A stretch of 64,000 bases of DNA from positions 1-64,000 of the forward strand of contig PLOR01000104.1 in assembly GCA_003142185.1 (NCBI GenBank), written 5' to 3'. Within the stretch, counting starts at the first letter, position 1. Every line of letters begins with the position of its first letter. This document shows positions 47,235 through 63,815 of the stretch, piece by piece. This DNA is from Bryobacterales bacterium (GTDB lineage Bacteria; Acidobacteriota; Terriglobia; Bryobacterales; Bryobacteraceae). The notes below the pieces were generated by a model. It did no database searches. It saw only the letters and a list, made by a program, of their open reading frames with translations, and was not told the origin of the DNA. A program made the position numbers and the translations under genes.

Positions 47235-47279
47235 GTAACGAACCAGCCTTAACAGCTTCGCAACCGTTCGGTACTGGAC
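47235..47279 (+). promoter_or_regulatory. Chitin-locus element, copy 1 (before the SIS gene)
   Basis: A 45-base element with conserved blocks GTAACGAAC, TAAC, CGCAACCGTT and ACTGGACA at fixed spacing. It ends 38 bases before the SIS ATG. Copies stand at 49809, 56274 and 63771. The blocks are shared; the bases between them differ. A short direct repeat of GTTGAAAATA lies just upstream (from about 47200). Confidence 0.7.
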
Positions 47280-47317
47280 ATTGAAACTCCGACGGCTCAG
47301 ATTGAAACTTGAGTACC

Positions 47318-48376
47318 ATGTCAAAGATGCTGGAAGAGACCCGCCAGCAGCCGGAAGCGCTGTCGAACACGTTGGAGGACGGGGCCATCCGGCTGCGGGA
47401 ACTGCGCCGTCACCTGGAGGCCAAACGGCCGCGGCTGGTGATTCTGGTGGCACGTGGCACCTCGGACAACGCGGCACAGTTCGGCCGGTATCTGATCGAG
47501 ATCACCACCCACATCCCCGTCTCGCTGGCAGCACCGTCGGTACTGACCCTGTATGCCAGTCCGCTGGATTTGCACGACGTGCTGATGGTGGGGATCTCGC
47601 AATCGGGCGAATCGACCGACACGAACGCGGTGCTGGCGGACGCGCGCAGCCGGGGAGCGACCACTCTGGGGATCACCAACGAACCCAACAGCACGATGGC
47701 GGAGATCTCGGAGTACACGCTGCTGGCGCGAGCCGGGACGGAAGAGAGCGTGGCCGCGACCAAAACGTATACGTGCCAACTCCTGGCGCTGTACCTGGTG
47801 GCGTATGCGCTGGGCGGCGAGGTGTCATTCGACGCGCTGCGCCAGTTGCCGCAGTGTGTGGAAGACGTGCTGGAGATCGAGGACCGTGTGGGCGAGATCG
47901 CCGAGCGTTACATGTACATGACGCGGGCGGTGACGGTGGGCCGCGGCTTGAACTACGCCAATGCGCTGGAGTTCGGCTTGAAGCTGATGGAGACGTGCTA
48001 CGTGGTGACGGAGCGGCTTTCCTCGGCGGACCTGATGCACGGGCCGATCGCGCTGGTGGAACACGCGTTTCCGGTCTTCGTGTTCGCACCTTCGGGAGTC
48101 ACGTGGCAGTCTATTTCCGCGGTGGTGGACATGCTGGAGGACGTGAAGGCAGAGACGCTGGTGATCACCGACGAGAGCAACAGCGAGGCCTGCGCCAAGC
48201 CTGCGCGGCTGATCCGCCTTCCGCACCCAACCGGCAGTTGGGGTGGCCCGCAGGATTTGTACACGCCCATTCCGTACATCGTGCCGGCGCAATTGTTCGC
48301 CGCGCAATTGGCGGAGATCAAGGGGTTGAACCCGGATCGGCCGAGGATGCTGCACAAGATCACCCGGACGATGTAG
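47318..48376 (+). CDS. SIS-domain sugar-phosphate isomerase/deaminase (NagB-II-like)
   Basis: About 352 aa with two SIS domains and no glutamine-amidotransferase domain. First domain: VILVARGTSDNAAQFGRYLIE and VGISQSGESTDTNAVLADA (SQSGES phosphate loop). Second: TVGRGLNYANALEFGLKLMETCY and SSADLMHGPIALVE. It ends near KGLNPDRPRMLHKITRTM, as in GlmS/AgaS/NagB-II proteins. NagB-II enzymes convert glucosamine-6-P to fructose-6-P and ammonia in chitin catabolic loci. The ATG at 47318 is used; TTG at 47309 is possible. The 3' end overlaps the convergent ROK gene by 17 bases. Confidence 0.88.
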   Translation: MSKMLEETRQQPEALSNTLEDGAIRLRELRRHLEAKRPRLVILVARGTSDNAAQFGRYLIEITTHIPVSLAAPSVLTLYASPLDLHDVLMVGISQSGESTDTNAVLADARSRGATTLGITNEPNSTMAEISEYTLLARAGTEESVAATKTYTCQLLALYLVAYALGGEVSFDALRQLPQCVEDVLEIEDRVGEIAERYMYMTRAVTVGRGLNYANALEFGLKLMETCYVVTERLSSADLMHGPIALVEHAFPVFVFAPSGVTWQSISAVVDMLEDVKAETLVITDESNSEACAKPARLIRLPHPTGSWGGPQDLYTPIPYIVPAQLFAAQLAEIKGLNPDRPRMLHKITRTM

Positions 48377-49775
48377 GCCCCGCCGTATCGGAGCCGCGAC
48401 CAGAGGGAGCGGTAATTCTGGGAAGCGTCGCCGCCGCCACTGCCTGCCCGAGGCGTTTCTCCTTTTCGCTGGGCATATGAAGCCGGAGGCCCTCCTCCAC
48501 TTCCGGGAATTCCCGCTGCAAAACCCGGCGCGCGGTCGAGAGGATGACGCCACCTCCCTCTCCGGTCATCACCCGGCCCAGCACCAGCACGTGGCGAAGC
48601 TCATAGAATGCGGCGTACTGAGCGATCGCATAACCCAGATACACGCCGATGGACTCGTAGATTCTCCGGGCGCGCTGGTCGCCCGCGGCCATCAGTTCCT
48701 GAGTCGCGGCCAGCTTCCCGGCCAGCGGCATGCCGGGATCGAGCGCGATGCCCGCGGCGGCCAGAAGCCGGTTGACGGCCTGTTGCGAGAAGTATTGCGA
48801 ACCGACGCCGCCGTCTCGCGACCACTCGTCGAGCGGTGCATTCTGCCGGTAGTCGACCGGCGCGAACGCCAACTCGTTCAGCCAGTCCGTGATGTTGCCC
48901 TGCGGATTGACATACCCGGCGGCCTGGCTGGTGCCCATCGAAATGCCCAGAACGGCCGTGTCTCCCAGCGCCATCGAAGCCGCCAGCGCCGTCACCTCGC
49001 CGTCGTTCGCCACCACGAACGGCACTCCATTCCAGGCCCGCTGGAGCTCGAAAAAAATGCGCCGCACCCGCTGGTCGAACAGGTCGGGGGGCACGCCGCG
49101 AAACAGCGACGCCACGCGGACTTCGTTATCCACGTAAATACCCGCGGCGCTGCCGCCGACGGCGTCGACACGGGGCAGCCGGGCCGCCGCGCGCTGGAGA
49201 GAGTCGTTAATCCCGGCAAAGTGATAGCCGGGATCCGCCTGGAAATAGGGATCCCAGACGACCTCTTCGCTGTGCACCACTTCCCCGTTCATCACGGCTG
49301 CGCACTTGCGGTCGCTGCCGCCCAGGTCGAATCCGATGCGGCAGCCGTCCTGGTGACGTCCGAGCGCAAGCCCGATCTCCTTCGGCTCGGGGGCCCGTTC
49401 ATAGGTCACACCTTCGATCACCATCGGCCGCCCGTATACGCGGCTGCCCATGAAATCGAAATCGAACGCGCGAGCGCCCGTCGCGGAATAGACGCGCTGA
49501 ATGTGAGCCGCCACGCCGGGATCGCCGGCGATGGTCACCTTCCACCCGCCCCTCTGCCATAGGAGGAACTTCACCAGGCGCTCGACGTAGAACTCGTTGG
49601 CCGGACGCGCGCCGGCGAAGATCCCGGTATGGAAGACGGAACGCGAGCCATCCTGCCGCTCGAGAGCAATCGCCAGCTTGCGGGCGTTTCCACCCGCGCG
49701 CACGGCAGCTTGAAAATCGCGGTTCCACAGCGATGCGGGAACGAATTCGGGATCGAGAGGCGGCTTCTCTTGCAT
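48360..49775 (-). CDS. ROK-family sugar kinase-like protein with N-terminal extension
   Basis: 471 aa, about 150 longer than a standard ROK kinase. The actin-like core begins at about residue 145 (CRIGFDLGGSDRKCAAVMNGEV, phosphate-1 loop). It has VDAVGGSAAGIYVDNE, the catalytic Asp in VANDGEVTALA, VLGISMGTSQAAGYV and VLVLGRVMTGEGG. The Zn-binding HxC/CxC cluster of many ROK proteins is not visible, and there is no helix-turn-helix. In this locus it is a good candidate for phosphorylating free GlcNAc released by the phosphorylase. The 145-residue N-terminal part is unassigned. The end overlaps the convergent SIS gene. Confidence 0.82.
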   Translation of the reverse strand: MQEKPPLDPEFVPASLWNRDFQAAVRAGGNARKLAIALERQDGSRSVFHTGIFAGARPANEFYVERLVKFLLWQRGGWKVTIAGDPGVAAHIQRVYSATGARAFDFDFMGSRVYGRPMVIEGVTYERAPEPKEIGLALGRHQDGCRIGFDLGGSDRKCAAVMNGEVVHSEEVVWDPYFQADPGYHFAGINDSLQRAAARLPRVDAVGGSAAGIYVDNEVRVASLFRGVPPDLFDQRVRRIFFELQRAWNGVPFVVANDGEVTALAASMALGDTAVLGISMGTSQAAGYVNPQGNITDWLNELAFAPVDYRQNAPLDEWSRDGGVGSQYFSQQAVNRLLAAAGIALDPGMPLAGKLAATQELMAAGDQRARRIYESIGVYLGYAIAQYAAFYELRHVLVLGRVMTGEGGGVILSTARRVLQREFPEVEEGLRLHMPSEKEKRLGQAVAAATLPRITAPSGRGSDTAGPTSSG

Positions 49776-49808
49776 CAGTCACCATGGTGGACGCCGGCGG
49801 GGCCGCAA

Positions 49809-49854
49809 GTCCAGTTCACAACGGTTATGGCTGCCGTTACAGCATGTTTGTTAC
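49809..49854 (-). promoter_or_regulatory. Chitin-locus element, copy 2 (before the ROK gene)
   Basis: On the minus strand a 46-base element: GTAACAAAC, TAAC, AACCGTT, GTGA, ACTGGAC in the same order and nearly the same spacing as the other copies. It ends 33 bases before the ROK start codon. Confidence 0.7.
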
Positions 49855-49873
49855 GGGGTGAACGTGCGAACTG

Positions 49874-51526
49874 TCAGGGGCTTGGAGACTCCTCGACTTT
49901 CAGGAACTGATCGGCGGCAACGTCCTTGAGGGTCTGCTCCGCGCCTCGCGGCCACCGGATCTCGATGGAGGCGATCTGCTTTTCGCCTCCCAGCCCAAAG
50001 TGCACTCGCTTGTCGCTCGAAGACATGAACCCCGTGCTGACGGATACGTGATTGTAGAGCACGCGGCCCGCAGCGGTGGTGAGCTTTACTTTCGCGCCAA
50101 TGGCGTCGCGGTTGCTATAGCGGCCCACCAGCTCCAGCGTCAGCCAGTGATTGCCGTTGCCGCCCGAGTTGAGGAGGATGCGGGGCCGCTCCATGAGCGA
50201 GGTCACCACCAGGTCCTCGAAGCCGTCGTTGTTGAGATCGCCGATCGCCGATCCGCGCTGATAGCCGGTGCGCAGAAAGCCGGCGCCCATCTGACCGGAC
50301 ACGTCCACGAACTGCTTGCCGCCCAGATTGCGAAACATGGTGTCGTGCTGCCGCGCGTTCGGCTTCACGTTGTCGATGTCGCCGTTGGCGGAGTACAAGT
50401 CCTTCCAGCCGTCGTTATCGTAGTCGATGAAGGCGGCGCTCCAGCCGGAGAGCGGTTGGCTGAGCTGTTGCAACTGGACCTGCTCGGGGACGTAGCGAAA
50501 GAAGTCGCCACGGTTGCGGTAGAGTTGCCAGATCTGCCCCATCAGGTTGTTCGTGAAGATGTCCACGCGGCCGTCGTTGTCGTAGTCTTTGGCGTCGCTG
50601 CCCATGGAGGAGACCGCTTTGGCATCGTCGTTGTAGGCGACGCCGAGCGGCAGGCCCCGGTCTTCGAAGGTGCCGTTTCCCTTGTTGATGAAAAGCGAGT
50701 TCGGCTCGGTGTCGTTGGCGATGAAGACGTCCTGGTAACCGTCGTCGTTGAAGTCGGCGATAGAAATTCCCATTCCCTTGCCCGGCGCGGTGGCGAAGCC
50801 GGACTTCCCGGTCACGTCCTCGAACCGGCCGTGGCCTAGGTTGTGATATAGCCGATGCGATGCACGCGGGTAAAACGTCGGACTGCAGTAGTACTCGACG
50901 CCGTTGACGCTGCATCGCCGGTCGGTTTGCGGCGTCCAGGTTGTGTAATTGGACACTACCAGGTCCAGCAGGCCGTCGTTGTCGTAATCGAACCAGGCCG
51001 CGCCGACGCTCAGCACCCCTGGCGGTTTCCCACCGATGCCCGATTGTTCGGTGACATCGGTGAAGGTTCCGTCGCCGTTGTTGTGATACAGGGTGTTCCG
51101 CCCGGCGCCGCAAATGAAGATGTCCTCGAAGCCGTCATTATCGTAATCGCCCACGGCGACGCCCAGATTGTAGCCGATGTTTTCGCCAAGGAGCCCCGCT
51201 TTCCTGGTCACGTCCTCGAACGTGCCGTCTCCTTTGTTGCGAAGCAGGCAGTTGTAGAACGCGGGGCCGATTTTCTTCATCTCCGGCAACTTCGCGCCGT
51301 TGGTGAAGAAGATGTCCATTTTGCCGTCGTTGTCGTAGTCGAAGATGGCGACGCCGCCGGCCATCGGTTGCACGAAGTACTTCCGCGGCGACAGATCGTT
51401 ATTGGTGATGTAGGAGAACTTCGAGCGTGCGGTGATATCGACGAAGTGCGGCTGCGCCGGTTGGATGGCGATTGCGCCAGCGGCCAAGGCGGCCGCCGCG
51501 CCGGCCGTGAGGAGCGCGGCTCTCAC
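49874..51526 (-). CDS. CRTAC1 family protein (FG-GAP/VCBS repeats with UnbV/ASPIC C-terminus)
   Basis: 550 aa, secreted (MRAALLTAGAAAALAAGAIA signal). It has at least six FG-GAP-type calcium-binding blades, seen as FDYDNDGKMDIFFTN, GDYDNDGFEDIFICG, FDYDNDGLLDLVVSN, ADFNDDGYQDVFIAN, IDYDNDGWKDLYSANG and GDLNNDGFEDLVVTS. The C-terminal ASPIC/UnbV domain reads WLTLELVGRYSNRDAIGAKV and SSSDKRVHFGLGG. Such proteins lie on the cell surface and are common next to TPR and Oar genes in acidobacteria; glycan binding is often proposed. Its ATG overlaps the TPR stop (ATGA). Confidence 0.93.
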   Translation of the reverse strand: MRAALLTAGAAAALAAGAIAIQPAQPHFVDITARSKFSYITNNDLSPRKYFVQPMAGGVAIFDYDNDGKMDIFFTNGAKLPEMKKIGPAFYNCLLRNKGDGTFEDVTRKAGLLGENIGYNLGVAVGDYDNDGFEDIFICGAGRNTLYHNNGDGTFTDVTEQSGIGGKPPGVLSVGAAWFDYDNDGLLDLVVSNYTTWTPQTDRRCSVNGVEYYCSPTFYPRASHRLYHNLGHGRFEDVTGKSGFATAPGKGMGISIADFNDDGYQDVFIANDTEPNSLFINKGNGTFEDRGLPLGVAYNDDAKAVSSMGSDAKDYDNDGRVDIFTNNLMGQIWQLYRNRGDFFRYVPEQVQLQQLSQPLSGWSAAFIDYDNDGWKDLYSANGDIDNVKPNARQHDTMFRNLGGKQFVDVSGQMGAGFLRTGYQRGSAIGDLNNDGFEDLVVTSLMERPRILLNSGGNGNHWLTLELVGRYSNRDAIGAKVKLTTAAGRVLYNHVSVSTGFMSSSDKRVHFGLGGEKQIASIEIRWPRGAEQTLKDVAADQFLKVEESPSP

Positions 51527-52491: not shown

Positions 52492-52547
52492 GCGAGACTC
52501 GCTCACTATATTGGAACACACCGGCTTCAGAACCTGCCGAAAAACAA

Positions 52548-52630
52548 TGGCCACGGATGAACACAGATGAACACCGACAGAAAAGCACTGGCTCTTCTTA
52601 TCCGTGTTTATCTGTGTTTATCCGTGGCCA
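52548..52630. repeat. GATGAACAC-type hairpin, second copy in the window
   Basis: Arms 52548-52579 (TGGCCACGGATGAACACAGA and on) and 52600-52630 (its imperfect complement, ending TCCGTGGCCA) form a long stem. The arm sequence is nearly that of the element at 41078-41152. It lies between the Oar and TPR genes on the minus strand and may attenuate read-through. Confidence 0.75.
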
Positions 52631-52649
52631 AGATGTTTTTTCGGAATGC

Positions 52650-52680: not shown

Positions 52681-52697
52681 GCTTGCTACAGGGGGAA

Positions 52698-55600
52698 CTA
52701 GAACACGTACTTCAAACCGAACTGCAGATTGCGAGCGCCTTGCGATGTATTGATGACGCCCGCTTGCGAGCCGCCGTAAATGTCGGCGGAATACCCGACC
52801 ACATCGAGAACCGGGGCGTTGAAGGCGTTGATGGCCTCAGCCCTGAACTCGACATGCTGGTTCTCGTGGCCCGGAATCATAAAGGTTTTCGCCAGACTGA
52901 GATCGATCTGCTTCAATCCGGGGCCCCGCTCCGTGCCGACGCCACAATTGCCGAAGTTGCCAGCCGGCGGATTGGACATGTTGGCGGTACCGAACCAAAC
53001 ATAGCCGCCGCCATTGGCTGCGGAGTTTTCCGCGAACGGAGTCGCTATCGACGGCCCGTTGCAATTGGGGCGTGGATCGAACGACCCAGTGCCCGGGTCG
53101 CCGCCCCAGTCTTGCATGGTAATCGGGAACCCTCCATGCGCGGTGAAGACGGCGTTCACATCCCAACCGCCGAGGACCGCATTGACAACCGGACTCGAAT
53201 CCCTGCCATACATGCGGTTCTTGCCGAAGGGCAGCTGGTAGGTGACGTAACCGTTGAATACGCTGGTCAAGTCGTGGTCGCAGTAGCCATAGTCGGCGGC
53301 TATGTCATAAGTGTTCTGCGGGAAGCTGATGTCGTTGCTGGCCTGGCTGGCCGCGTCGTCTCCATACCGCCCGTAGTAACCGTTGTTGTTAGTCAGGCAC
53401 TTGGACCAGGTGTAATTCGCCTGGAACGAGAGTCCCTGTTTGAGCCGTTGTTGGAACGAAAGCTGCAAGGCATTGTAATTCGCTTCGCCCGTGGTTTCGT
53501 TGAGTCTCGTCTGACCCGGTCCATCGGCGACGAGGGCCGGATTTCCGGCGAGCAGCGGGCTGGGTAATACTACGCCCGGCGACGCGAGAAATCCCTGATT
53601 GGCGTTGACGATGGTCGCCAGGTGATCGTTATGTTGTCCGACATAGGCGGCCTGCAGCGTTGTTGCGCTGCCGAACTGCCGTTGCACGGAAAGATTCCAC
53701 TGGTTGGACACAGCGGGACGGTAGTTCGGATCCGTCAGGTGTATCCTCACGCCTGTGAAACAGGACGCGGGAGCGGAGGTCACGTTCGCGACCGTGCATC
53801 CGGCAGTATTGCCGAGCCCTGCGAAACCCTGGTCGAGAGTGACCTGATTCGACGGGATACCACTGGTGCCATTCCAATTACCCGACAAGTCGGCGTTCCA
53901 CGGAGCATTCGTAGCCAGCCGGTTATACTCGCCCGTGCCTTCCGAGAAGCTGGAGCGGCTGAGCGCGGCACGAAACACGGTGTTTTTCAAAGGACTCCAG
54001 GCCAGACCAATGCGCGGCAGGAAGTTGGCAATGCCGTTGTACTGGTTGTACATGGCGGCGCTGACGCCACCCACCCCCGCGAGTTCTATCTTACCCGTGT
54101 CTTCCTGGACGTTGGTCTCCCGATTGCCGATTTCGTAAATCGGCGTGAACAGTTGCCAGCGCAAGCCAAGATTAACGGTCAGCTTCGGAGTTAGCTTCCA
54201 GTCATCCTGTATATAAGCTCCCAAGGCGTCGTTGCGCTGTCCGACAGTGGCTCCGAACCCGGTGCCGATACCCATATAAGAAGGTAGACCGACCAAGAAG
54301 TCGGTTTCCGCATTTCCAGTGTAAGTTCCATTGAACCCGATCTGGCCCGCGCCGCCATCGGCAACCACCGACGGAATGTAATCGTTGCGGTAACGGATGA
54401 ACTGGAACCCGAATTTCACGTTGTGCGCGCCGTGGGTCCAGAGCGCCGTATCTTCGAGCAGGATGGAGGTCTGGTGGAAGATCTCCGGGGCATCGGCCGT
54501 TCCGAAAGCAAACGGACCGTTGACGGTGCCGCCGAGCGGCGCTCCCGAGAAGGAGAAACCCGGCAGGTAGTTGGTTGGCTCGCCGGGCACCAACGCGCCC
54601 AGATTCGAGGAAGTGCTGGGCTGGATATTCGCTTCCGCCGGATAGTAGTTCACACCAACGCGAAACTCATTGACGATGTTCGGCTTCACGGTCTTTGCGT
54701 AGTTAATGACGCCGTTCCAGAGCGGCAGGTGCTCGTTGCCGTTGGTGCTGTACAGCACTGCCTGGCTGTTCACGAACTGCTGTACGACGTTCTGTTCCGA
54801 GTACCGCACCGACACGTGATCGCTATCGTTTGGGTTCCAGTCGATCTTGACGTCGCCCTGATTGCCATTGGTGAAATCGTGTTCCGAATTGGGCACGTTG
54901 TTGAGCAGTCCGGTGCCGCCGGGTTGCGGAAGCGCCTTCATAATGTTCAGAGCAGTCTTGCTAATGGTGATGCAGGGATCGATGCCCATGGTCTGACCGG
55001 CGCCGCATGTCGTTGCCTGATTGAGGTTCGAGGGCATGGGAACATTCGTGCCCGGGTAGTGCAGCGCTACTCCCAGATCCGTGAAGTTCAGGCTGTTTTC
55101 GGCGGTGGTGAAGGTATTCATGGAGACGACCGTGGTCGGGTGGTCAAAGCGCGACCCCTGGAAGTCGCCGAAGAAGAAGAGTTTGTTCTTCTTGATAGGA
55201 CCGCCGATGGTTCCGCCAAAATCGTTCCAGCGTAGGTTTTGCGGGTTGGCGCTTTCACTGGAGAATTGGCTGAAGTTCCGCAACCACTCATTGGCATTCA
55301 GGTCGTTGTTGCGAAAGAACTCAAACGCATCGCCATGGTAAGTGTTGGTTCCCGACTTGGTGATCACGCTGATGACGCCGCCCATGAACTGCCCGTAATC
55401 CGCCGGCGGGTTGTTGGTGATGACGTTGAATTCCTCGATCGCATCCACGTTCGGCGCGTAGGCGACGTTGTTGTCCACGAATTCCACGTTTTCCATGCCG
55501 TCCAACAGGTAGTAGTTCGCCTGTTCGCGATTACCATTGATATAGGGGCGGCCGGAGTTGAATGTCGACTGCCCGGTATTGAAGGCGCCCGGGCTGGTGG

Positions 55601-56108
55601 TGACGGCGCCAGGCATCAGCAGAGTCAGTTGGTTGTAGTTGCGCGTTTCGAGCGGCAGGCTGGTGATGGCCTCCGATTGCATCACCGTGCCGACGGTAGT
55701 CGTCTCGGCCTGCAGGATTGGCGCCGCGCCGGTCACTTCCACCGATTCGCTGATGTTGCCGACCTTCAACTGGAAATCGAGTTTGGCGACCTGGTTGATT
55801 TCGAGTTCCACCTTCGGCTGAATGGCAGCCTCGAACCCGGTCTTGGTCACCTTTATTTGATAACGGCCCACGGGAAGCCGAGATAGGTTGTAGGCGCCGG
55901 CACTATCGGTGACGGCGGAGAATGTCGTACCGCGATCCAGATCTCCAGCCGTGACCTTGGCGGCCGCGACCGTCGCTCCCGTCGAATCGCTGACGACGCC
56001 ATTTACGGACGCGGTAACGTCCTGCGCCCGGAGCGGAAAGCTCGAGACCAGGGCCGCGAACAGACACAGCCCAAGAACCCGAACTGTGGAGTAGCGCTTC
56101 AGTTGCAT
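52698..56108 (-). CDS. Oar-like TonB-dependent receptor of the chitin locus
   Basis: About 1136 aa. Signal peptide MQLKRYSTVRVLGLCLFAALVSSFPLRAQ (first part MQLKRYSTVRVLGLCLF), then a carboxypeptidase-regulatory-like domain (ASVNGVVSDSTGATVAAAKV, about 33-115). A plug-like region follows (EEFNVITNNPPADYGQFMGGVISVITKSGTNTYHGDAFEFF in segments). The long barrel ends FGLKYVF with a terminal Phe. AGGGAG stands just before the ATG at 56106-56108. Its place among chitinolytic genes and its own copy of the shared element suggest uptake or binding of chitin oligomers; the ligand is not shown by sequence alone. Confidence 0.92.
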   Translation of the reverse strand: MQLKRYSTVRVLGLCLFAALVSSFPLRAQDVTASVNGVVSDSTGATVAAAKVTAGDLDRGTTFSAVTDSAGAYNLSRLPVGRYQIKVTKTGFEAAIQPKVELEINQVAKLDFQLKVGNISESVEVTGAAPILQAETTTVGTVMQSEAITSLPLETRNYNQLTLLMPGAVTTSPGAFNTGQSTFNSGRPYINGNREQANYYLLDGMENVEFVDNNVAYAPNVDAIEEFNVITNNPPADYGQFMGGVISVITKSGTNTYHGDAFEFFRNNDLNANEWLRNFSQFSSESANPQNLRWNDFGGTIGGPIKKNKLFFFGDFQGSRFDHPTTVVSMNTFTTAENSLNFTDLGVALHYPGTNVPMPSNLNQATTCGAGQTMGIDPCITISKTALNIMKALPQPGGTGLLNNVPNSEHDFTNGNQGDVKIDWNPNDSDHVSVRYSEQNVVQQFVNSQAVLYSTNGNEHLPLWNGVINYAKTVKPNIVNEFRVGVNYYPAEANIQPSTSSNLGALVPGEPTNYLPGFSFSGAPLGGTVNGPFAFGTADAPEIFHQTSILLEDTALWTHGAHNVKFGFQFIRYRNDYIPSVVADGGAGQIGFNGTYTGNAETDFLVGLPSYMGIGTGFGATVGQRNDALGAYIQDDWKLTPKLTVNLGLRWQLFTPIYEIGNRETNVQEDTGKIELAGVGGVSAAMYNQYNGIANFLPRIGLAWSPLKNTVFRAALSRSSFSEGTGEYNRLATNAPWNADLSGNWNGTSGIPSNQVTLDQGFAGLGNTAGCTVANVTSAPASCFTGVRIHLTDPNYRPAVSNQWNLSVQRQFGSATTLQAAYVGQHNDHLATIVNANQGFLASPGVVLPSPLLAGNPALVADGPGQTRLNETTGEANYNALQLSFQQRLKQGLSFQANYTWSKCLTNNNGYYGRYGDDAASQASNDISFPQNTYDIAADYGYCDHDLTSVFNGYVTYQLPFGKNRMYGRDSSPVVNAVLGGWDVNAVFTAHGGFPITMQDWGGDPGTGSFDPRPNCNGPSIATPFAENSAANGGGYVWFGTANMSNPPAGNFGNCGVGTERGPGLKQIDLSLAKTFMIPGHENQHVEFRAEAINAFNAPVLDVVGYSADIYGGSQAGVINTSQGARNLQFGLKYVF

Positions 56109-56273
56109 AAAAGCTCCCTTCATTTCGCTTTCGGTTAGGAACGCTCTGTCCTGCCGGCGCGTTGCCGTGCGGCCAACGCAAAACATGCCCTGCCGGAATC
56201 ACTTCGAGCCGCCGGGCTACCGACCGCAGTCCCCTGACCGCTTTACGCAATCCTGGGCCGTCCGGGGACCGCT

Positions 56274-56320
56274 GTCCAGTTCCAAACCGTTGCACAGGCG
56301 GTTCGCAACATGTTCGATAC
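56274..56320 (-). promoter_or_regulatory. Chitin-locus element, copy 3 (before the Oar gene)
   Basis: The least conserved copy, 47 bases on the minus strand: GTATCGAAC, ATGTTG, GAAC, GCAACGGTT, TGGA, ACTGGACA. About 20 bases after ACTGGACA, GACGGCCCAG resembles GACGGCTCAG after copy 1. Confidence 0.55.
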
Positions 56321-56421
56321 ACCTGAATGCTCACCGGGCACGACTTATGCGCTGGAGCGCCCCTCGATCCGATCGTCCCCAGCCTCGATTCGTGTGGACG
56401 CGCACAGGGTTTTTGAGTGCG

Positions 56422-56490
56422 GTTGGCAGGCGAAAGCGCCTGCCCCACTTTGCCGGCGAAGCAGTGGGGCAGGCGCTTTCGCCTGCCAAC
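56422..56490. repeat. Inverted pair of the 27-bp dispersed repeat
   Basis: 56422-56448 is the reverse complement and 56464-56490 the direct copy of the 27-base unit seen at 18872-18898, all three identical. They are separated by 15 bases. The pair can form one long cruciform, or two hairpins with core GGCAGGCGCTTTCGCCTGCC. Confidence 0.85.
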
Positions 56491-56545: not shown

Positions 56546-57775
56546 CTACTGCAAGCCGTTGGCGAGGGTGGTCAGGAGCGTGGCGGCGGAATCGTCGTTA
56601 CTCAGTTCCCACGACATCGCGCCGGCCAGGCCCTTGCGCTTGATGTAGTTGGTCTTGTTCAACAATGAGGCGGGATCGTCATAGGACCAGAAGATCCCGG
56701 CGGATGGGCTGTAAACCCAGAAGGCCTGCGCCACCGGGTCGCGGAAAGCGGGATAGCCAAGATTCTTGAGCGCGCGAAACGCCTCGGTGCCAGATTCGCT
56801 GCCGGGCTCGTCGCTCGCCTTCGCGGGCCCGGCTCCCGGTTGAAACAGCCCGTTGTTGGTGTTGGGCACGCCCTTCCAGCCGTGACCGTAAAACGGCACG
56901 CCCAGCACGAGCTTCGCAGGCGGAACGCCGGCTGCCAGGTAGTCCGTTACCGCGCGGTCGATGTTCCGGTTCGCGGTGTCGGCCGGCTCCGCCGGATTGG
57001 CGTATAGCGCGGCGTGGTGATTGGTAACTTTCTCCCACGTTCCGTGAAAGTCGTACGCCATCAGGTTGATGTAGTTGAGGTAGGGATGAATTGCGTTGAG
57101 ATCTAGGATCGAGTAGTCTTCGTGACCCGCCGGCGCCGCTATCGTCAACAGGTAACGTTTGTCGAGAAGATCGAGCTGTCGCCGGAACTCGGCCAGCAGC
57201 AACGTGAAGTTGCGCGGATCGGCGGGCGAAAAGGCGCTGGTGTTGCCCAGGGCGCCGGGATACTCCCAATCGACGTCGATGCCGTCGAACAGGCCCGCCA
57301 TCGACATCCCGTTGCCGAGGTCGCCTTTGAGGAACAGGCCAATGCAGGAGGCCACGAAAGCCTGGCGCGAGGCGGCGCTCGATGCCGCCTCCGAAAAATG
57401 GGATGAGAGCGTCCAGCCTCCTAGTGAGATGAGCACCTTCAGCCGCGGATACGCCGCCTTCAACTTGAGCAATTGACCGAAGTTACCGCGCACAGTCTGC
57501 GGCTCCGCGCGGTCGGCCTTCCCGTCCACGCTGTCAGCGGCACCATATGGTTTTTCATAGTCGGCCACCGGGTCCGAAATGGCGCACCCGGTGGCCGTCG
57601 GTTTGCCGAATGCGTACATCAGGTGCGTGATCCGGGCCGCCGCGCCGCTGGTCGCGATGTTCTTGGGATGGTACGCGGTGCCCCCGTTGTAGAAGTACGC
57701 GATGTTGACCCGCTGTGCGTTCGCCGCCAGCGCCAACAGGAACAGCAAGGCCACTGCAGGGGCACGATGCCGCAT
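56546..57775 (-). CDS. Secreted GH18 chitinase
   Basis: 409 aa, single-domain. Signal peptide MRHRAPAVALLFLLALAANA. The GH18 barrel shows LKVLISLGGWTLSSHFSEA and the catalytic DxxDxDxE motif as FDGIDVDWEYPG (Glu near 172). Further on come INLMAYDFHGTWEKVTNHHAAL and FWSYDDPASLLNKTNYIKRKGLAGAMSWELSNDD (segments GIFWSYDDPASLLNK and GLAGAMSWELSND). It hydrolyses chitin to chito-oligosaccharides. There is no carbohydrate-binding module. It starts 3 bases after the stop of the phosphorylase gene, so it is the last gene of the MFS-fusion-phosphorylase operon. Confidence 0.95.
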   Translation of the reverse strand: MRHRAPAVALLFLLALAANAQRVNIAYFYNGGTAYHPKNIATSGAAARITHLMYAFGKPTATGCAISDPVADYEKPYGAADSVDGKADRAEPQTVRGNFGQLLKLKAAYPRLKVLISLGGWTLSSHFSEAASSAASRQAFVASCIGLFLKGDLGNGMSMAGLFDGIDVDWEYPGALGNTSAFSPADPRNFTLLLAEFRRQLDLLDKRYLLTIAAPAGHEDYSILDLNAIHPYLNYINLMAYDFHGTWEKVTNHHAALYANPAEPADTANRNIDRAVTDYLAAGVPPAKLVLGVPFYGHGWKGVPNTNNGLFQPGAGPAKASDEPGSESGTEAFRALKNLGYPAFRDPVAQAFWVYSPSAGIFWSYDDPASLLNKTNYIKRKGLAGAMSWELSNDDSAATLLTTLANGLQ

Positions 57776-57778
57776 GAT

Positions 57779-60175
57779 TCATCCCATCACTACGGTGACT
57801 TGATTGGCGGAACCCGCCTGCTGAGGCGGTATCGCGCCGTCAACCGGTTCACCATTCAGCGTAATCGACTGGACGCCCTTCTGCACTCCGCGGGGGTTGG
57901 TGACCGTGATCTCGAACGCGGCGCCACGCCACCGGCGCGTCACCTGGAAGCCTTTCCACTCGGCCGGTATGCAGGGATCCACGATCAAGCCCTCAAAACT
58001 CAGCCGGACTCCGAGGATCCAGCGCGTGGCGGCAGTATAATTCCATCCGCCGCTGCCGGTCAGCCACGGATGCCGGGCGCGGCCGAAAGCCGTATGGTCC
58101 CGCCCCATCACGAACTGGCAATAGGAGTACGGTTCCGCCTCGCGAATCTCGATCCGGTCGTTCTGGTTCGACGGCAGCAGCGCGTCGTAGAACTTCATGG
58201 CTCGTTCGCCGCGTCCGAGCTTGCACTCGGCGATGACGGCCCAGGGATTGGGATGGCTAAAGATGGCCGCGTTCTCTTTGATGCCCTTGTAGACCCGCGT
58301 GACAAACCCTATATCGTCATCCGGCTTGGAAAACGCCGGCCACAGGAGGTGAATGCCGTATGGGGAGTAGAGATGCCGGTCCACGGCGTCCATCGCCAGC
58401 CTGCCGCGCTCCGCGGAGGCCGCATCGGAAAGCACGGCCCAGGTGTTGCTTTCGAGAAAGATCTTGCCTTCCTCGCTCTCCCGCGTGCCGATGCGGACTC
58501 CCTTGGCCGTGAAGCCGCGCAGGTACCACTCGCCATCCCAAAGCTCCCTCTCGCAGGCCGCTTTGACTTTGTCCCCAAGGGCGGCGCATTCGCGGGCATC
58601 CTGTTCGCAGCCCAGGTACTCCGCCGCCTCGACGAAAGCTCGCAGCGCCCAGTGATGCAGGAAGGAGACCATGGCACTTTCCCCGCCGCCCAGGTTCAGG
58701 CAATCGTTCCAGTCGGCACGCAGCCCTTGGCAGATGCCGTTCGAGCCGACGTGGCGGGCGGAGAAATCGAGAGCGCGTTTCAGGTGCTGGTAGACGGTGG
58801 CCTCGTCCTGGTCCGCGAACGGAACCACCTCCCCGAACAGTGCGTCGTCCCCGGTCTCTTTCACGTACTCGCAGATCGAGACCACCAGCCACAGCGCGTC
58901 GTCCGAGCAAACGTCTTCGAGACCGTGAATGATACTCTTGCGGTCCGGCGTCGCGGTCACCGTGGGCGATTTGAACTTGGGGGCCTTCTGCTTGGCCGGA
59001 TCGAACCAGTCCGGATCGAACAGGTGCAGCCCATAGCCCTGGCTCACCTGCCCTTGCAGCAGTTCGAGAATGCGCTGCCGGCATTTTCCGGGATTGGTGT
59101 GAACCACGCTCATCAGGTCCTGCGACGTATCGCGATATCCCAAGCCGGTGCGTCCGCCCACCTCGATGAACGATGCGAACCGCGACCAGACCACGCACGT
59201 CTCCGCCTGGTATAGCGTCCAGGTGTTGATCATGGTGTCGAGACCCTGGTGCGGAGTTTTGCACTGGAACGCAGCTAGCTTTTGCTCCCAATATGACCGG
59301 AGCGCCGCAAACGCGCGGTCCACTTCGGCCAGGTCCGAGTACTTGGCCTTCGCCTCCCGCCCTTTGGCGCGCGGGCCAACTCCCAGCAGGAAAACCAGCC
59401 GCGTTTCTTCTCCCGGCGCGAGCGTCAGCCGCTTATGCAGCGCACCGCAATGATTCCCGCCCAGCTCGGAACTGGCGGCGCACTCCCCCCGCTCCACCGC
59501 CGCCGGGTTGGTCTCCGTCCGGTAGTTCCCCAGGAAACGGTCCCGCATGCAGTCATAGCTGTCCGGCTCGAAGTTCGAGGCGAAGTAGTGAAAGGTCCAC
59601 GGCTCGTAAAAGAAATCGTATTCGATGATGCCGTCCTGGTAGCTCGCCCCGGAGGCGTAAAGGCTCATCTGCAGGTTCTGGTTGTCGATTTCGATATGGT
59701 GGAAGGAGAACTCCAGGTACGAAAACACGCTGAGGTGGCGCTGGCGCGAGCCGGTGTTCTTGATCCGCACATCCCACAGCTCGGCATCGTCGTCGACCGG
59801 GATGAAAACGGTCTGCTCCGCGTGCAGGTCCTGGTAGTCGCAGGAGAACTTCGAGTACGAGAGACCGTGCCGGCACTGGTAGCTGGCTTTCGCCAGGTCC
59901 TTGCCCACGGGCTGCCAGGAGACCGACCAATACTCGCCCGTGTCGTCATCGCGCAGGTAGACGTAGCGCCCCGGCCGGTCCAACGGAACGCCGTTGGCGC
60001 GGAAGCGCGTAATCCGCTGGTGCTCGGCATTTTGGTAGAAGGAGTACCCGCCGGCGTTGTGCGAGATCACGGTGCATAGATCCCGCACTCCCAGGTAGTT
60101 GGTCCAGGAGACCGGCACATCCGGCCGCTCAATGACGTATTCTCTGTTCTGGTTGTCGAAGTAGCCGTAGCGCAA
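57779..60175 (-). CDS. chbP: N,N'-diacetylchitobiose phosphorylase (GH94)
   Basis: About 798 aa, the length of the Vibrio enzyme. It splits N,N'-diacetylchitobiose with phosphate into GlcNAc-1-P and GlcNAc in the cytosol. The text is very close to what I recall of Vibrio ChbP: YGYFDNQNREYVIERPDVP, FCTV-like LCTVISHNAGGYSFYQNAE, MINTWTLYQAETCVVWSRF, ASFIEVGGRTGLGYRDTSQD and GRDHTAFGRARHPWLTGSGG. The catalytic Asp is in GLRADWNDCLNLGGGES (about residue 488). The TTG at 60173-60175 is chosen as start: AGG lies 6 bases upstream and the protein then begins (M)RYGYFDN as in homologues. A GTG at 60187, overlapping the previous stop, is the alternative. Confidence 0.95.
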   Translation of the reverse strand: MRYGYFDNQNREYVIERPDVPVSWTNYLGVRDLCTVISHNAGGYSFYQNAEHQRITRFRANGVPLDRPGRYVYLRDDDTGEYWSVSWQPVGKDLAKASYQCRHGLSYSKFSCDYQDLHAEQTVFIPVDDDAELWDVRIKNTGSRQRHLSVFSYLEFSFHHIEIDNQNLQMSLYASGASYQDGIIEYDFFYEPWTFHYFASNFEPDSYDCMRDRFLGNYRTETNPAAVERGECAASSELGGNHCGALHKRLTLAPGEETRLVFLLGVGPRAKGREAKAKYSDLAEVDRAFAALRSYWEQKLAAFQCKTPHQGLDTMINTWTLYQAETCVVWSRFASFIEVGGRTGLGYRDTSQDLMSVVHTNPGKCRQRILELLQGQVSQGYGLHLFDPDWFDPAKQKAPKFKSPTVTATPDRKSIIHGLEDVCSDDALWLVVSICEYVKETGDDALFGEVVPFADQDEATVYQHLKRALDFSARHVGSNGICQGLRADWNDCLNLGGGESAMVSFLHHWALRAFVEAAEYLGCEQDARECAALGDKVKAACERELWDGEWYLRGFTAKGVRIGTRESEEGKIFLESNTWAVLSDAASAERGRLAMDAVDRHLYSPYGIHLLWPAFSKPDDDIGFVTRVYKGIKENAAIFSHPNPWAVIAECKLGRGERAMKFYDALLPSNQNDRIEIREAEPYSYCQFVMGRDHTAFGRARHPWLTGSGGWNYTAATRWILGVRLSFEGLIVDPCIPAEWKGFQVTRRWRGAAFEITVTNPRGVQKGVQSITLNGEPVDGAIPPQQAGSANQVTVVMG

Positions 60176-60183
60176 AACGCACC

Positions 60184-62382
60184 TCACACCGACACAAATT
60201 GCCTCAGCCAGTGCACCAGTTCCTGCGCCTTTAGCGGCGAATCGGCTTCCACGGCGAGCCGCAGCACCGGCTCAGTGCCGGAGAACCGGAGCAGCGCCCA
60301 ATTATCGTTCTCAAGCCTCAGTTTGGTGCCGTCCATGTGCGAGATCCCGATTACGGGGTAGGGCCCGATCTGCTCGCAGGGCGCTTCTTTCAGGCGCCGC
60401 GGAACCACGATCCGCATCTCGGGCGTGGCCGGCAGGCTCTCCTCGAAATCGTAGAGCCGCCCGGTGAGGGCGCGCACCCGTTCGAGCAGCGGAGAAATCT
60501 TCTGGCCCGTACGCGCCAGCATCTCCACCACCAGGGCCGAAGCGAAGATACCATCCTTGCCGAGGATGTGCCCCCGGATGGTCAGCCCGCCCGAGGATTC
60601 GCCTCCCAGCAGCGCGTTGTGCTCCGCCATCGCGGCGGTGATGTGCTTGAAGCCCACCGGAACCTCGTAGCATTGCTCGCCCAGCCGCAGGGCCAGCCGG
60701 TCGAGCAGGTGCGTGGTCGCCAGGTTGCGCACCACTCCGCCGCGCTCGCCGCGTACTTCATGCAGGTACCAGTAGAGCAGTACCAGAACGTCGTTGATCG
60801 AGATGTACTCGCCGCGCTCGTCCACGATCGCGATGCGGTCGGCGTCTCCGTCCATCGCCAACCCCAGGTCGTATTTGTGATCCAGCATCTGGGAGGTCAG
60901 CAGCCGCAGCGCTTCCAGATTGGGGGCGGGGGAGCGGCCGCCGAACAGCGGATCGTGCCGCTCGTGGATGAATGTCACCCGGCAGCGGGCCTCTGTCAGC
61001 ACAGTACCCAGCGTGAGCTGCCCCACGCCATACATCGGATCCACGATCACGTTGAGTCCCGCCTCGCGGATCGCGTTCAGGTCAATCAGCTTCTCCACCG
61101 CATCCACATACTCGTTCGTGAAGTCGCGCCGCTCGACAATGCCGGCTTCCAGCGCCAGGTCCAGTTCCACTTTGATGACCTGGTCCGGCTCGAGCGCGTT
61201 GGTCTCGTTCTCGATCCGGCGCGTCTCGTCGTCGAGCAGCAACGATCCATCGCCGTGAAAGACTTTGAGCCCATTCCACTCGGGAGGATTGTGGCTGGCC
61301 GTGAACGCCAGGCCATACGCCGATCCGCGCGTAGCCGTGGCGTAGGTGATCAGCGGCGTGGGCGCGTCTTCGGCTAACAGAATGGTTGGGATGTTGTTGC
61401 CGGCAAACACCTCGCAGGAAGCCTCGGCGGCCTGTTTCGAAAGAAAGCGCCGGTCGTAGCCGACGATCACGCCGCGCTTCTCCTCGCCCCGGCGCGTGAT
61501 CCCGTTGGCCAGGGCCTGGCTGAGCCGGCGAACGTTGTGCATGGTGAAGCCTTCGCCGATGATGGCTCTCCAGCCGCCGGTGCCGAACGTGACCAGGTTC
61601 TGTTCCTCCTGGCGCCGCGGCCTGAATAACCGCTTCTCGAGAATGAACTCGGCCCGCGCCAGGTCCGCCGCCGTGTTGATGCCCTGCACTTCGTCCTGGT
61701 CGCAGAGCTGGTAGCTTTCCACGCGCCGGCCCGATCGAATCAACTCGTGAACCCAGTCCGTGAGGCGGCGGGCCGGCGAGACGGCACTCGCGGCGCTGGC
61801 ATCAATGGCGTATGCGCCCACGTTCACTTCCCGGATTTCCCGCACGGCAGGCGATGCCTCGGTGTCCTCGATGATGTCGATGATCTCGCCGGCGGCACTG
61901 CGGACGATCCGTCCGTAGGGAAGGGCCCGGTCGATAACCGCCGTCAGCAGCGTCAGGTCCGCCTTCCGCAGGCGGTGCCGGTTGAGCAATCCGCGGATGG
62001 AGGTTGGGCGGAACAGCGGCGTGTCGCCGTAGAGAATCAGCAGGCTGCCATGGAAATCCCGCAGCAGCGGCAGCGCCTGCAAGGCCGCGTGGCCGGTGCC
62101 GAGCGGCTCGTCCTGCAAGACATAGCGAACCTTGTCGCCCAGGTGCGCCCGCACTTCCTCCTGCCTGTATCCGACCACCACGTAGATGTCGGCGGCGCCG
62201 GCCACGCCGAGCGCATTCTCCACCACGCAATCGAGGATCGTGCGATCTCCCAGGGGTTGCAACACCAGCGGCCGGCCATCCTCGGCTAGGGTTTGCTTGC
62301 CGGCAGCCAGAATGATGACCTTGGTTTCCGCGGTCCCGGCCGGCGTGGCCGCCTCCACGGTCTCATCGAGCGTCAGCGCCAT
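60184..62382 (-). CDS. Fusion of a GlmU-like nucleotidyltransferase domain and a phosphohexomutase
   Basis: 732 aa, two enzymes in one. Residues about 18-245 resemble the GlmU pyrophosphorylase domain: VLQDEPLGTGHAALQALPLL, LLILYGDTPLF, REVNVGAYAID, VQGINTAADLARAE. The signature loop is degenerate: ILAAGKQTLAEDGRPLVL replaces GKGTRM...PKVL, losing the catalytic Arg and Lys. Residues about 260-732 are an intact alpha-D-phosphohexomutase: GTGGWRAIIGEGF, active Ser in LAFTASHNPPEWNGLKV (near 360), metal loop DGDADRIAI (near 508), sugar loop GGESSGGL, phosphate loop RFSGTEPVLRL. GlmU's acetyltransferase helix is absent. The mutase could interconvert GlcNAc-1-P and GlcNAc-6-P. GGAGGAG precedes the ATG, and the gene overlaps the MFS gene by 10 bases. 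Confidence 0.88.
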   Translation of the reverse strand: MALTLDETVEAATPAGTAETKVIILAAGKQTLAEDGRPLVLQPLGDRTILDCVVENALGVAGAADIYVVVGYRQEEVRAHLGDKVRYVLQDEPLGTGHAALQALPLLRDFHGSLLILYGDTPLFRPTSIRGLLNRHRLRKADLTLLTAVIDRALPYGRIVRSAAGEIIDIIEDTEASPAVREIREVNVGAYAIDASAASAVSPARRLTDWVHELIRSGRRVESYQLCDQDEVQGINTAADLARAEFILEKRLFRPRRQEEQNLVTFGTGGWRAIIGEGFTMHNVRRLSQALANGITRRGEEKRGVIVGYDRRFLSKQAAEASCEVFAGNNIPTILLAEDAPTPLITYATATRGSAYGLAFTASHNPPEWNGLKVFHGDGSLLLDDETRRIENETNALEPDQVIKVELDLALEAGIVERRDFTNEYVDAVEKLIDLNAIREAGLNVIVDPMYGVGQLTLGTVLTEARCRVTFIHERHDPLFGGRSPAPNLEALRLLTSQMLDHKYDLGLAMDGDADRIAIVDERGEYISINDVLVLLYWYLHEVRGERGGVVRNLATTHLLDRLALRLGEQCYEVPVGFKHITAAMAEHNALLGGESSGGLTIRGHILGKDGIFASALVVEMLARTGQKISPLLERVRALTGRLYDFEESLPATPEMRIVVPRRLKEAPCEQIGPYPVIGISHMDGTKLRLENDNWALLRFSGTEPVLRLAVEADSPLKAQELVHWLRQFVSV

Positions 62383-63689
62383 TGCGGCGTCTCCTCCATG
62401 GGCTCCGGCGAGACGGCTGGCGAGCTGGCTCCGCCCCGGATGGGGATCAGCCGGGAGAGAATCAGCGCCGGGATTGAGGACAGCAGCACCCACACAAAGA
62501 AATTCCGGTAGCCGACCGCCAATTGGATCTTCCCGCTCACCGTGCCCGGGATCAGGAGGCCAAGATTCATCAGCGAATTGGCGAAAGCATAATGTGCCGT
62601 CTGATACTTTCCCGGCGCGATCTCCTGCATCATGAGCAGGATTACGCCCACGAAGCCGAAGCCGTAGCCGAACATTTCCACGCTCAGCGCCGCCGTGACA
62701 GCCAAGTGACTCGTAGGCAGGGCCGTGCTCAGGTATACGTAAGCCAGGTTGGGGAAATTCATCGCGCAGACCAGCGGCAACAGCGCGCGCCGCAGGCCCA
62801 GCCAGGAAGTGAAATAGCCTCCCAGAATGCTGCCCGCCACGAAAGCCAAAGTTCCGAATGTGCCATATATGGTTCCGAACTGGTCCGTAGTCAGGCCCAG
62901 GCCGCCCGCCACCCGCTTATCCACAAGGAACAGCGGGCCAATCTTCACCACTTGGCCCTCGCCGGCACGGTACAACACAATGAAGAGCAGCAGCAGGTAG
63001 ATGTTCGGCTTCTTGAGAAAGCTGACCACCACCTCTTTGAAAGTGGCCGCCATCTCGCGAATGCTTTCGGACCGGCGCTCGGCCCCGCCACTGGGCAGCA
63101 CCTGCGCGTGATAAATGCTCAGCGCCATGAGGATCAGTCCCATGGCCACGAAAATCGCCATCCATGCGCGCGGCACGCCCACCCGGAGTTCGAGGTATCC
63201 CGCCAGGATGATCAAGCCGCCCTGCGAGAAGAACCGCGCCGCGTTGTAGAAGCCGCCCTGCCATCCTGTGTACGCCGCCTGCTCTTTGGGGGAAAGGCTA
63301 GCGATATACAAGCCATCGGCGGCGATGTCGTGGGTCGACGAGCAGAAAGCGACCACCGCCAGCAGAGCCAGCGTGTATCCGAAATAGCCCGGCAGCGGCA
63401 GGCACAAGGCCACCAGCGCCAGGCTCAGCCCACCCGCAAGCTCGAGAGCGACCACGAAGAATTTCTTGGTCTTGAACATCTCGATGAGCGGGCTCCACAA
63501 TGGCTTGAGCGACCACGGCAGCAGCAGCAGACTGGTGTAAAAAGTGATGACATCGTTGCGCAGCCCGAGGCGCTTGTAAAGGATCCCGGCGATCAACGCG
63601 ACAGCGAAGAACGGCACGCCCTCCGCGAAGTACAGCGTCGGCACCCATCGGGCGGGGTGGGTGCGATCAGGCGTCCGGGTGCTCGTCAT
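62373..63689 (-). CDS. MFS permease (AmpG-like), probable amino-sugar oligomer importer
   Basis: 438 aa with about 12 transmembrane helices. It opens WVPTLYFAEGVPFFAVALIAGILYKRLGL, similar to the AmpG muropeptide permease branch of the MFS, with LPWSLKPLWSPLIEMFKTKKF after helix 2 and CSSTHDIAADGLYIASL in the following loop. AmpG-type carriers import GlcNAc-containing disaccharides. Being first in the operon with chitobiose phosphorylase, it is a likely inner-membrane importer of diacetylchitobiose; this is inference. The start codon is ATG at 63687-63689. Confidence 0.88.
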   Translation of the reverse strand: MTSTRTPDRTHPARWVPTLYFAEGVPFFAVALIAGILYKRLGLRNDVITFYTSLLLLPWSLKPLWSPLIEMFKTKKFFVVALELAGGLSLALVALCLPLPGYFGYTLALLAVVAFCSSTHDIAADGLYIASLSPKEQAAYTGWQGGFYNAARFFSQGGLIILAGYLELRVGVPRAWMAIFVAMGLILMALSIYHAQVLPSGGAERRSESIREMAATFKEVVVSFLKKPNIYLLLLFIVLYRAGEGQVVKIGPLFLVDKRVAGGLGLTTDQFGTIYGTFGTLAFVAGSILGGYFTSWLGLRRALLPLVCAMNFPNLAYVYLSTALPTSHLAVTAALSVEMFGYGFGFVGVILLMMQEIAPGKYQTAHYAFANSLMNLGLLIPGTVSGKIQLAVGYRNFFVWVLLSSIPALILSRLIPIRGGASSPAVSPEPMEETPQWR

Positions 63690-63770
63690 TAGCGTTCCCC
63701 GGTCAGGCTTCGAACCAGGCCCAGACAGCCTGACCGCTCCCTGCGATGGTGGCCCGTGACTTGCCAGCCT

Positions 63771-63815
63771 GTCCAGTTCACAACGGTTGCGGAGACGTTA
63801 TGCGAGGTTTGTTAC
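63771..63815 (-). promoter_or_regulatory. Chitin-locus element, copy 4 (before the MFS operon)
   Basis: On the minus strand a 45-base element: GTAACAAAC, TAACG, CGCAACCGTT, GTGA, ACTGGACA, with exactly the spacing of copy 1. It ends 81 bases before the MFS start codon. Confidence 0.72.

Follow-up and report, generated by a model that had tools for sequence, protein, structure and literature searches.

A conserved operator-promoter element and a candidate membrane-anchored regulator of chitin and N-acetylglucosamine genes in Bryobacterales

Introduction

Why do four transcription units of a chitin and N-acetylglucosamine (GlcNAc) locus each carry a copy of the same element in front of their start codons, and which protein would read it? 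The locus lies in a stretch of 64,000 nucleotides from a Bryobacterales bacterium (assembly GCA_003142185.1, contig PLOR01000104.1, positions 1-64,000; genome of 5.79 Mb), hereafter the window. An initial annotation of this DNA had described the four copies and proposed that they are conserved protein-binding sites and that one regulator controls the whole locus. Here, we analyse the architecture of the element, its distribution in related genomes, and its association with a candidate regulator, REG, encoded beside the first copy.

Acidobacteria are described as abundant in soils and hard to culture, and they are rich in Oar-type receptors of unknown substrate. In the open-access literature we found no report of an operator, a regulon or a regulator for chitin use in Acidobacteriota, nor of the REG family. 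A study of a chitinolytic acidobacterium with a chitobiose phosphorylase does not use the words 'regulator' or 'transcription' in its main text (PMC6252331).

Results

All four genomic copies of the element lie at one locus

The copies had been placed at 47235-47279 (plus strand) and at 49809-49854, 56274-56320 and 63771-63815 (minus strand), and we reproduced all places, orientations and blocks, as well as the identical block spacing of copies 1 and 4 (9-6-4-8-7-4). The blocks given as GTAACrAAC and AACCGTT are present in copies 1, 2 and 4, whereas copy 3 is a variant with GTATCGAAC and AACGGTT instead. The distance to the start codon, first given as 33-165 bases, is about 32-86 bases with the starts that we chose (Table 1), the value of 165 fitting a later Oar start; the SIS start was set where it is because relatives begin MSKMLEETR. 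The sequence GACGGCyCAG shared by copies 1 and 3 is real, and is part of the -10-like region described below.

The core AACNGTTNNNNACTGGAC (AACnGTTn4ACTGGAC), searched with at most one mismatch, gave four matches in the window, all exact, where 0.04 were expected (100 shuffles). These are also the sole matches in the whole 5.79-Mb genome at this tolerance. The same search with the core pattern read backwards gave 3 matches in the genome, and lone one-mismatch matches would therefore carry little weight. With a sequence-only model of the four copies (R1), the next-best place in the genome after them had an E-value of 0.03. The bases between the blocks differ among copies.

The element precedes the same genes in other genomes

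R1 was run on the window's genome and on 60 others (genomes, loci and genera are numbered with the prefixes G, L and g). In the 60 others, seven rows were found at E<=1e-5 (in G002, G031 and G035) and three weaker ones at E 0.0016-0.0055 (in G015 and G021). All ten precede an orthologue of the SIS, Oar or ROK genes of the window or a PIG-L deacetylase gene, and any PIG-L gene among the seven strong rows is succeeded by SIS. R1 also matched 30 times at E<=1 in a set of 55 named loci, which come from assemblies of Bryobacterales and of other acidobacteria.

We then used a second model (R2), built from 32 copies and including the -10 stretch, on 237 genomes of the family. Since R2 holds many copies that it then recovers, its output is a census, R1 being the independent test; weak matches are lost to the stricter filters of whole-genome model searches over 40 genomes. 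R2 gave 67 rows at E<=0.01, of which 55, in 26 genomes of 16 genera, had E<=1e-4. The next genes of these 55 strong rows, assigned by comparing the downstream stretches with the window proteins and with glycoside hydrolase family 20 (GH20) and PIG-L proteins found en route, were Oar (20), SIS (10), ROK (10), major facilitator superfamily transporter (MFS, 5), PIG-L (5) and GH20 (3), i.e., 53 of 55 precede regulon genes, two of which are broken (Oar in L201, SIS in L215). The remaining two are without gene identity: one reaches the contig end (L197) and the other has no match (L230). Among the 12 rows at E 1e-4 to 0.01, four precede regulon genes (ROK 2, Oar 1, PIG-L 1) and eight, presumably chance matches, do not. 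One genus (L089, L093, L096) lacks the strict element; a diverged version was read there by eye, which carries little weight.

The families of the next genes are mutually non-homologous, and the element was therefore gained or kept separately before each of them. This recurrence in relatives, found by the kind of scan that the initial annotation had asked for, supports its reading of a conserved, predicted protein-binding site; together with the confinement of the element to the locus, it also supports control of the whole locus by one regulator, a single binder being suggested by the co-occurrence and position of REG (see below).

The surroundings of the element vary. In five of the loci retrieved, the gene after PIG-L is a GH20 or SIS gene. 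Some relatives have GH20 genes under the element, whereas the window's genome has two GH20 genes elsewhere (G000:C45:17996-18931 and C35:39345-40262), where no element was detected. The Oar-like gene and the MFS operon, which stand in tandem with a copy each in the window, diverge from a back-to-back pair of elements in three relatives (L079:1348-1596; L194/L232; L198/L233).

Each copy appears to join an operator to a promoter

We anchored 35 copies on AACTGGAC: the four of the window, four from L069, L070 and L077, and 27 of the 30 R1 rows of named loci (omitting the three weakest, L108, L106 and L100, with E 0.012-0.091). R2 further excludes L079:1526, L098:11195 and L133:9664. In 32 of the 35 copies, CAnnAT with at least three of its four fixed letters begins 18 nt (21 copies) or 19 nt (11 copies) after AACTGGAC, and all four letters are present in 24. 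R1 stops short of this stretch, so that the copies were not selected for CAnnAT, although the motif itself was picked by eye. The spacing from TGGACA to CAnnAT is 17-18 nt, within the 17 +/- 1 nt expected between the -35 and -10 of a sigma-70 promoter on sequence grounds. A weak -10 is common in activator-dependent promoters.

Upstream of these hexamers, the operator has the consensus GTTCGaT-n-GTaACGAAC-n6-TAAC-n8-CAACcGTTnnGAAC and runs into the -35 TGGACA. Its AAC boxes are regularly spaced in the 32 copies of alignment A5: boxes 1 and 2 are 9-11 bp apart in 29, boxes 2 and 3 are 11-13 bp apart in 29 (the other three being without the second box), and boxes 3 and 4 are 10 bp apart in all 32. 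If +1 is set 7 nt after the -10, the boxes of copy 1 lie near -69, -59, -48 and -38. The AACnGTT box is conserved like the -35, each of its six fixed letters being found in 32 or 33 of the 33 full-length rows. Each copy is thus a predicted operator of about 45 bp fused to a putative -35/-10 promoter, and is longer than first described. The boxes, mostly in 10-12 bp steps, would lie on about the same face of the DNA, and their predicted arrangement corresponds to an activator site that adjoins the -35. By this reckoning, the predicted leaders are of about 8 nt for SIS and about 2 nt for ROK, whose mRNA may be nearly leaderless.

The element goes together with the candidate regulator REG

Orthologues of REG (E<=1e-100; 51-85% identity outside its own genome) were found in 27 of the 237 genomes, and fragments in three more (G193, G168 and G220, the last counted as a REG genome solely via a fragment at the contig end, in L124). 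When the element is taken at E<=1e-4, 24 genomes have both, 6 have REG only, 2 have the element only and 205 have neither (P 4e-25, a value that, like the following ones, ignores the tree). Leaving out the gene fragments, the counts are 22, 5, 4 and 206 (P 2e-22), and by genus (76 genera) they are 16 with both, 2 with REG only and none with the element only (P 1e-14). REG and the element also go together within genera, in g1 (G000 versus G001), g86 (G253 versus its listed sisters) and g87 (G257 versus G256); the exceptions are G021 in g21, G169 in g68, G228 in g35 and all of g19.

The position of the element points in the same direction. It lies just upstream of REG and points away from it in the window, as it does in 12 further loci (L079, L080, L084-L088, L095, L097, L098, L107 and L124). 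In a tree of 46 REG-family proteins, the 14 loci labelled as element-bearing belong to a single set of 30 rows with support of 100/99; its remaining 16 rows show no strict element in the stretch retrieved. The single regulator proposed in the initial annotation is supported by these data, and its candidate is newly named here: REG is very probably the regulator of the element. Sequences similar to the possible promoter of REG itself (Table 1), ATTCTAGCA or, on the other strand, ATTTTAGCA, were seen by eye upstream of several REG orthologues.

REG resembles a membrane-anchored sensor with a winged-helix-like domain

REG has no Pfam or NCBIfam match, and a search of the sequences of the Protein Data Bank with its profile returned nothing of use (best E 0.16). 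The full model, made with the 46-row alignment, has a mean pLDDT of 84.6 and a pTM of 0.57. In this AlphaFold model, a hydrophobic helix (164-184) lies between two domains, with arginines on its N side. The predicted layout is a DNA-binding domain in the cytoplasm, a single membrane helix and a C-terminal sensor in the periplasm. The C-terminal part resembles BcsB (Z 11.3, root-mean-square deviation 3.0, 157 residues aligned) and the N-terminal domains of GH67, GH115 and GH84 enzymes (Z 7.9-10.5), and it alone was matched when the full model was searched with Foldseek (BcsB, E 7e-4). These resemblances, which are of the modelled fold only, suggest possible carbohydrate sensing.

The predicted DNA-binding domain, modelled alone, has a pLDDT of 90, with helices at 6-17, 20-23, 26-40, 49-55 and 70-87 and strands at 95-98 and 107-110 (domain numbering). 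Its 12 best VIA rows are all of the OmpR/PhoB type (Z 6.0-7.7, 83-89 residues aligned), with PrrA at the top (Z 7.7, root-mean-square deviation 3.5, 89 aligned). The domain may thus work like an OmpR/PhoB winged helix, to judge from the model, and we do not file it as a member of that family. The N-terminal domain of REG alone also matches inside larger open frames of this and related genomes (511-724 aa in L004-L007).

Distant relatives of REG also neighbour Oar-like genes

Among 21 loci of more distant REG relatives (L111-L123 and L125-L132), 16 have a divergent Oar-like gene within 1 kb; in L119 the distance is 2.4 kb, and L111, L126, L129 and L130 lack one in this position. In 47 clusters, representing 60 upstream regions of REG relatives, TAAC ranks top of the 256 4-mers for pairs 10, 11, 20, 21 or 22 bp apart (12 pairs in 9 clusters versus 1.9 expected), distances that were chosen after the upstream regions had been looked at. 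Its reverse complement, GTTA, forms no such pairs. In the 60 regions before clustering, TAAC is second to CTAA, which stems from 3 loci. By eye, several clades of relatives have TAACG boxes and GGAACTGG- or ATAACGG-type sites before a -10.

The locus and its other genes

The gene content agrees with the function assigned to the locus (Table 1). The GH94 phosphorylase is closest to chitobiose phosphorylase (1227 bits to 1v7v versus 536 to the best cellobiose phosphorylase), and the SIS protein is related to NagB-II and to the isomerase domain of GlmS. As predicted from these sequences, the locus truly serves chitin and GlcNAc use. The ROK protein was considered as a repressor and rejected, having 471 aa, a weak family match and no helix-turn-helix model in Pfam or NCBIfam; by sequence, it looks like a kinase.

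Table 1. Positions of the element copies, REG and the locus genes in the window.
Feature	Position	Strand	Remarks
REG, candidate regulator	45887..47131	-	414 aa; divergent from SIS, beside copy 1
REG domains			winged-helix-like, aa about 25-129; predicted membrane helix, aa 164-184; C-terminal alpha/beta, aa about 189-414
Extended -10-like TGGTAGAAT	47166..47174	-	possible promoter of REG itself
Copy 1	47223..47303	+	operator (GTTCG..GTAACGAAC..TAAC..AACCGTT); -35 TGGACA 47275-47280, 17 nt, -10 CAGATT 47298-47303; before SIS
SIS-domain sugar-phosphate isomerase/deaminase gene (NagB-II / GlmS-isomerase like)	47318..48376	+	SIS domain match; start codon used, ATG 47318
ROK-like sugar kinase gene	48360..49775	-	PF00480 E 0.035, below cut-off; start codon used, 49775
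Copy 2	49784..49865	-	operator; -35 TGGACT 49813-49808, -10 CACCAT 49789-49784; before ROK
Oar-like TonB-dependent receptor gene	52698..56186	-	PF25183, PF13620; start codon used, 56186
Copy 3 (variant)	56250..56331	-	operator; -35 TGGACA 56278-56273, -10 CAGGAT 56255-56250; before Oar-like receptor
GH18 chitinase gene	56546..57775	-	
GH94 chitobiose phosphorylase gene	57779..60187	-	
Nucleotidyltransferase-phosphohexomutase fusion gene	60184..62493	-	
MFS transporter gene	62373..63689	-	first in operon; AmpG-like, below cut-off; start codon used, 63689
Copy 4	63746..63828	-	operator; -35 TGGACA 63775-63770, -10 CACCAT 63751-63746; before MFS operon

The fusion gene, which joins a GlmU-like nucleotidyltransferase to a phosphohexomutase, sits between the chitobiose phosphorylase and transporter genes, and in L079 its mutase part alone matches. 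Downstream of the Oar-like gene (49874-52554, minus strand) are genes for an ASPIC/UnbV FG-GAP protein and a TPR protein. TPR genes, some with an ASPIC gene, are also near Oar-like genes in L074, L075, L096, L104, L106 and L108, and genes of the TPR/ASPIC type adjoin REG in L094, with no Oar gene in view; their products may be partners of the receptor. By eye, a long inverted repeat (ttggcaggcgaaagcgcctgccccact ... agtggggcaggcgctttcgcctgccaa) is seen at 56423-56490, in the stretch that separates copy 3 from the GH18 gene end; it may be a terminator or a small repeat.

Discussion

A proposed membrane-anchored activator of chitin and GlcNAc genes

The element is almost certainly a functional cis-element, given its conservation, its position before the genes of one regulon, and its promoter-like spacing. 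When its co-occurrence with REG is added, we put at about 0.8 the probability that the copies are regulated promoters of a chitin/GlcNAc regulon and that REG is their membrane-anchored one-component regulator, acting as an activator. Chito-oligosaccharides, or a signal derived from them, would enter through the Oar-like receptor and alter the periplasmic domain of REG. Multimers of REG would then bind the phased boxes, as a head-to-tail row of winged-helix protomers on tandem sites, and aid sigma-70 RNA polymerase at the -35 that overlaps them; the genes for receptor, chitinase, transporter, phosphorylase, kinase and isomerase would thereby be switched on together. Activation from the membrane is, as a part of this scheme, quite probable.

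REG could instead be a repressor that occupies the -35 and is freed by the inducer. The operator does run into the -35, and NagR of Bacillus, a known GlcNAc regulator, is described as a repressor (PMC4333415). However, neither the -10 nor the start site is covered by the conserved boxes, which are found upstream of the -35 (in copy 1 from about -86 to -36), and the -10 (CAnnAT) is poor. Both features are usual for activator-dependent promoters, and we regard repression as rather unlikely.

It is improbable, too, that a different, unlinked regulator binds the element and that REG is nearby by chance. The exceptions to the association are what this explanation would predict (REG was not found in 2 of the 26 element genomes, 6 of the 30 REG genomes lack a strong element, and in one genome the two are on different contigs), but it has to account for co-occurrence over 237 genomes and 76 genera, for REG being the divergent neighbour in 13 loci, and for the TAAC-type boxes that are also found upstream of REG relatives.

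A third explanation concerns the promoter: GAACTGGAC-n17-CAnnAT could be read by an alternative sigma factor of the extracytoplasmic function (ECF) type, with the upstream boxes being secondary. Promoters of this type usually have a GAAC-type -35, which speaks for it. Likewise, Ca. Solibacter usitatus is reported to have very many sigma-24 homologues (PMC3174227). Yet TGGACA with a spacing of 17-18 nt fits sigma-70, the upstream AACnGTT box is as highly conserved as the -35, and the 13 window proteins scanned around the elements include no sigma or anti-sigma family, which makes an ECF promoter very doubtful. Finally, a dispersed repeat or mobile-element remnant, which would be scattered at random or inside genes and which four similar copies in one locus might evoke, is rejected as next to impossible, because the copies differ between blocks, the genome scan found these four matches only, all at this locus, and the element precedes orthologous genes in 16 genera.

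Several observations nevertheless weigh against the main explanation. An orthologue of REG is present without the element at E<=1e-4 in G019, G172, G173 and G174 (all in one genus), in G228 and in G193, and the element is present in G169 and G021, where no REG orthologue was found. In G002, REG and the elements are on different contigs, and REG would therefore have to act in trans there. The evidence for a winged helix has its own counterweights: the VIA scores are below 8, in the range of common arrangements, with unrelated ScpB rows next at 5.9; Foldseek gave no match at E<=0.001 for the DNA-binding domain alone; the 46 REG-family proteins are without a match to any DNA-binding Pfam model (seven weak matches, each of a single protein, are to other families, E 0.007-0.08); and an hhalign comparison with the 13 Trans_reg_C (PF00486) domains of the same genome is not significant (P 0.079), when two halves of those 13 match each other at 4e-37. 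Another protein with a comparable footprint could use the phased boxes instead. Upstream of the relatives, TAAC pairs are commoner than expected at other distances too (24 versus about 14 up to 45 bp), and the after-the-fact choice of distances counts here as well.

Comparison with known systems

Winged-helix regulators of the OmpR/PhoB family, whose fold comprises helices, a recognition helix and a C-terminal beta-hairpin wing, bind tandem direct repeats about 10-11 bp apart. Promoters with pho boxes have such repeats running into the -35, as do the direct AAC boxes of the element, in 10-12 bp steps. The predicted DNA-binding domain of REG ranks nearest PrrA, SaeR, PhoB-DNA, PhoP-DNA, RpaA, GlnR and AdeR in structure (Z 6.0-7.7). 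Unlike OmpR/PhoB regulators, REG has no significant sequence relation to them and no receiver domain, and is predicted to be membrane-anchored.

In its predicted layout, REG is closer to the transmembrane transcription regulators (TTRs) of the ToxR/CadC type: a cytoplasmic DNA-binding domain, one membrane helix, a periplasmic domain and no kinase. A census of TTRs reports that Acidobacteriae are slightly enriched in them and relied on Pfam DNA-binding models (PMC10269533). The REG family differs from the TTRs of that census in having no DNA-binding Pfam match and in its sensor domain, and the census would therefore probably have missed it.

Other regulators act on chitin or GlcNAc. NagC is of the ROK type and NagQ of the LacI type. 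NagR, which binds dre sites, is assigned to GntR/HutC (PMC4333415). All three serve the same kind of regulon, GlcNAc uptake and catabolism, and REG matches none of their families. ChiS and TfoS of Vibrio cholerae are chitin-responsive membrane regulators, membrane-anchored DNA-binding proteins that, like REG in our model, act on a promoter when chitin is sensed (PMC11856585). They belong to another lineage, and the promoter studied serves natural transformation, whereas the predicted regulon described here comprises receptor, chitinase and catabolic genes.

Implications

The analysis defines an operator-promoter, gives the regulon under it in 26 genomes, and puts forward a candidate regulator whose family has no Pfam model. 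It also offers a rule: a gene divergent from an Oar-like receptor gene may encode its regulator, and the boxes between them may be the operator. The REG family seems to be an undescribed one, made up of transmembrane one-component regulators. We consider the odds even that it is a large family of Acidobacteriota, in which each member is divergent from its own Oar-type receptor, reads TAAC-phased operators and senses a periplasmic substrate by a domain like BcsB or the N-terminal domains of GH67, GH84 and GH115 enzymes.

In polysaccharide loci of Bacteroidetes, a dedicated membrane sensor-regulator is encoded next to the outer-membrane glycan receptor SusC/D. The logic is the same here, with the difference that the neighbour of the Oar-type receptors is one protein, a one-component regulator whose family is undescribed. 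If the wider proposal is true, the family would be the acidobacterial counterpart of these sensor-regulators, and the substrates of the receptors would become predictable from the operators.

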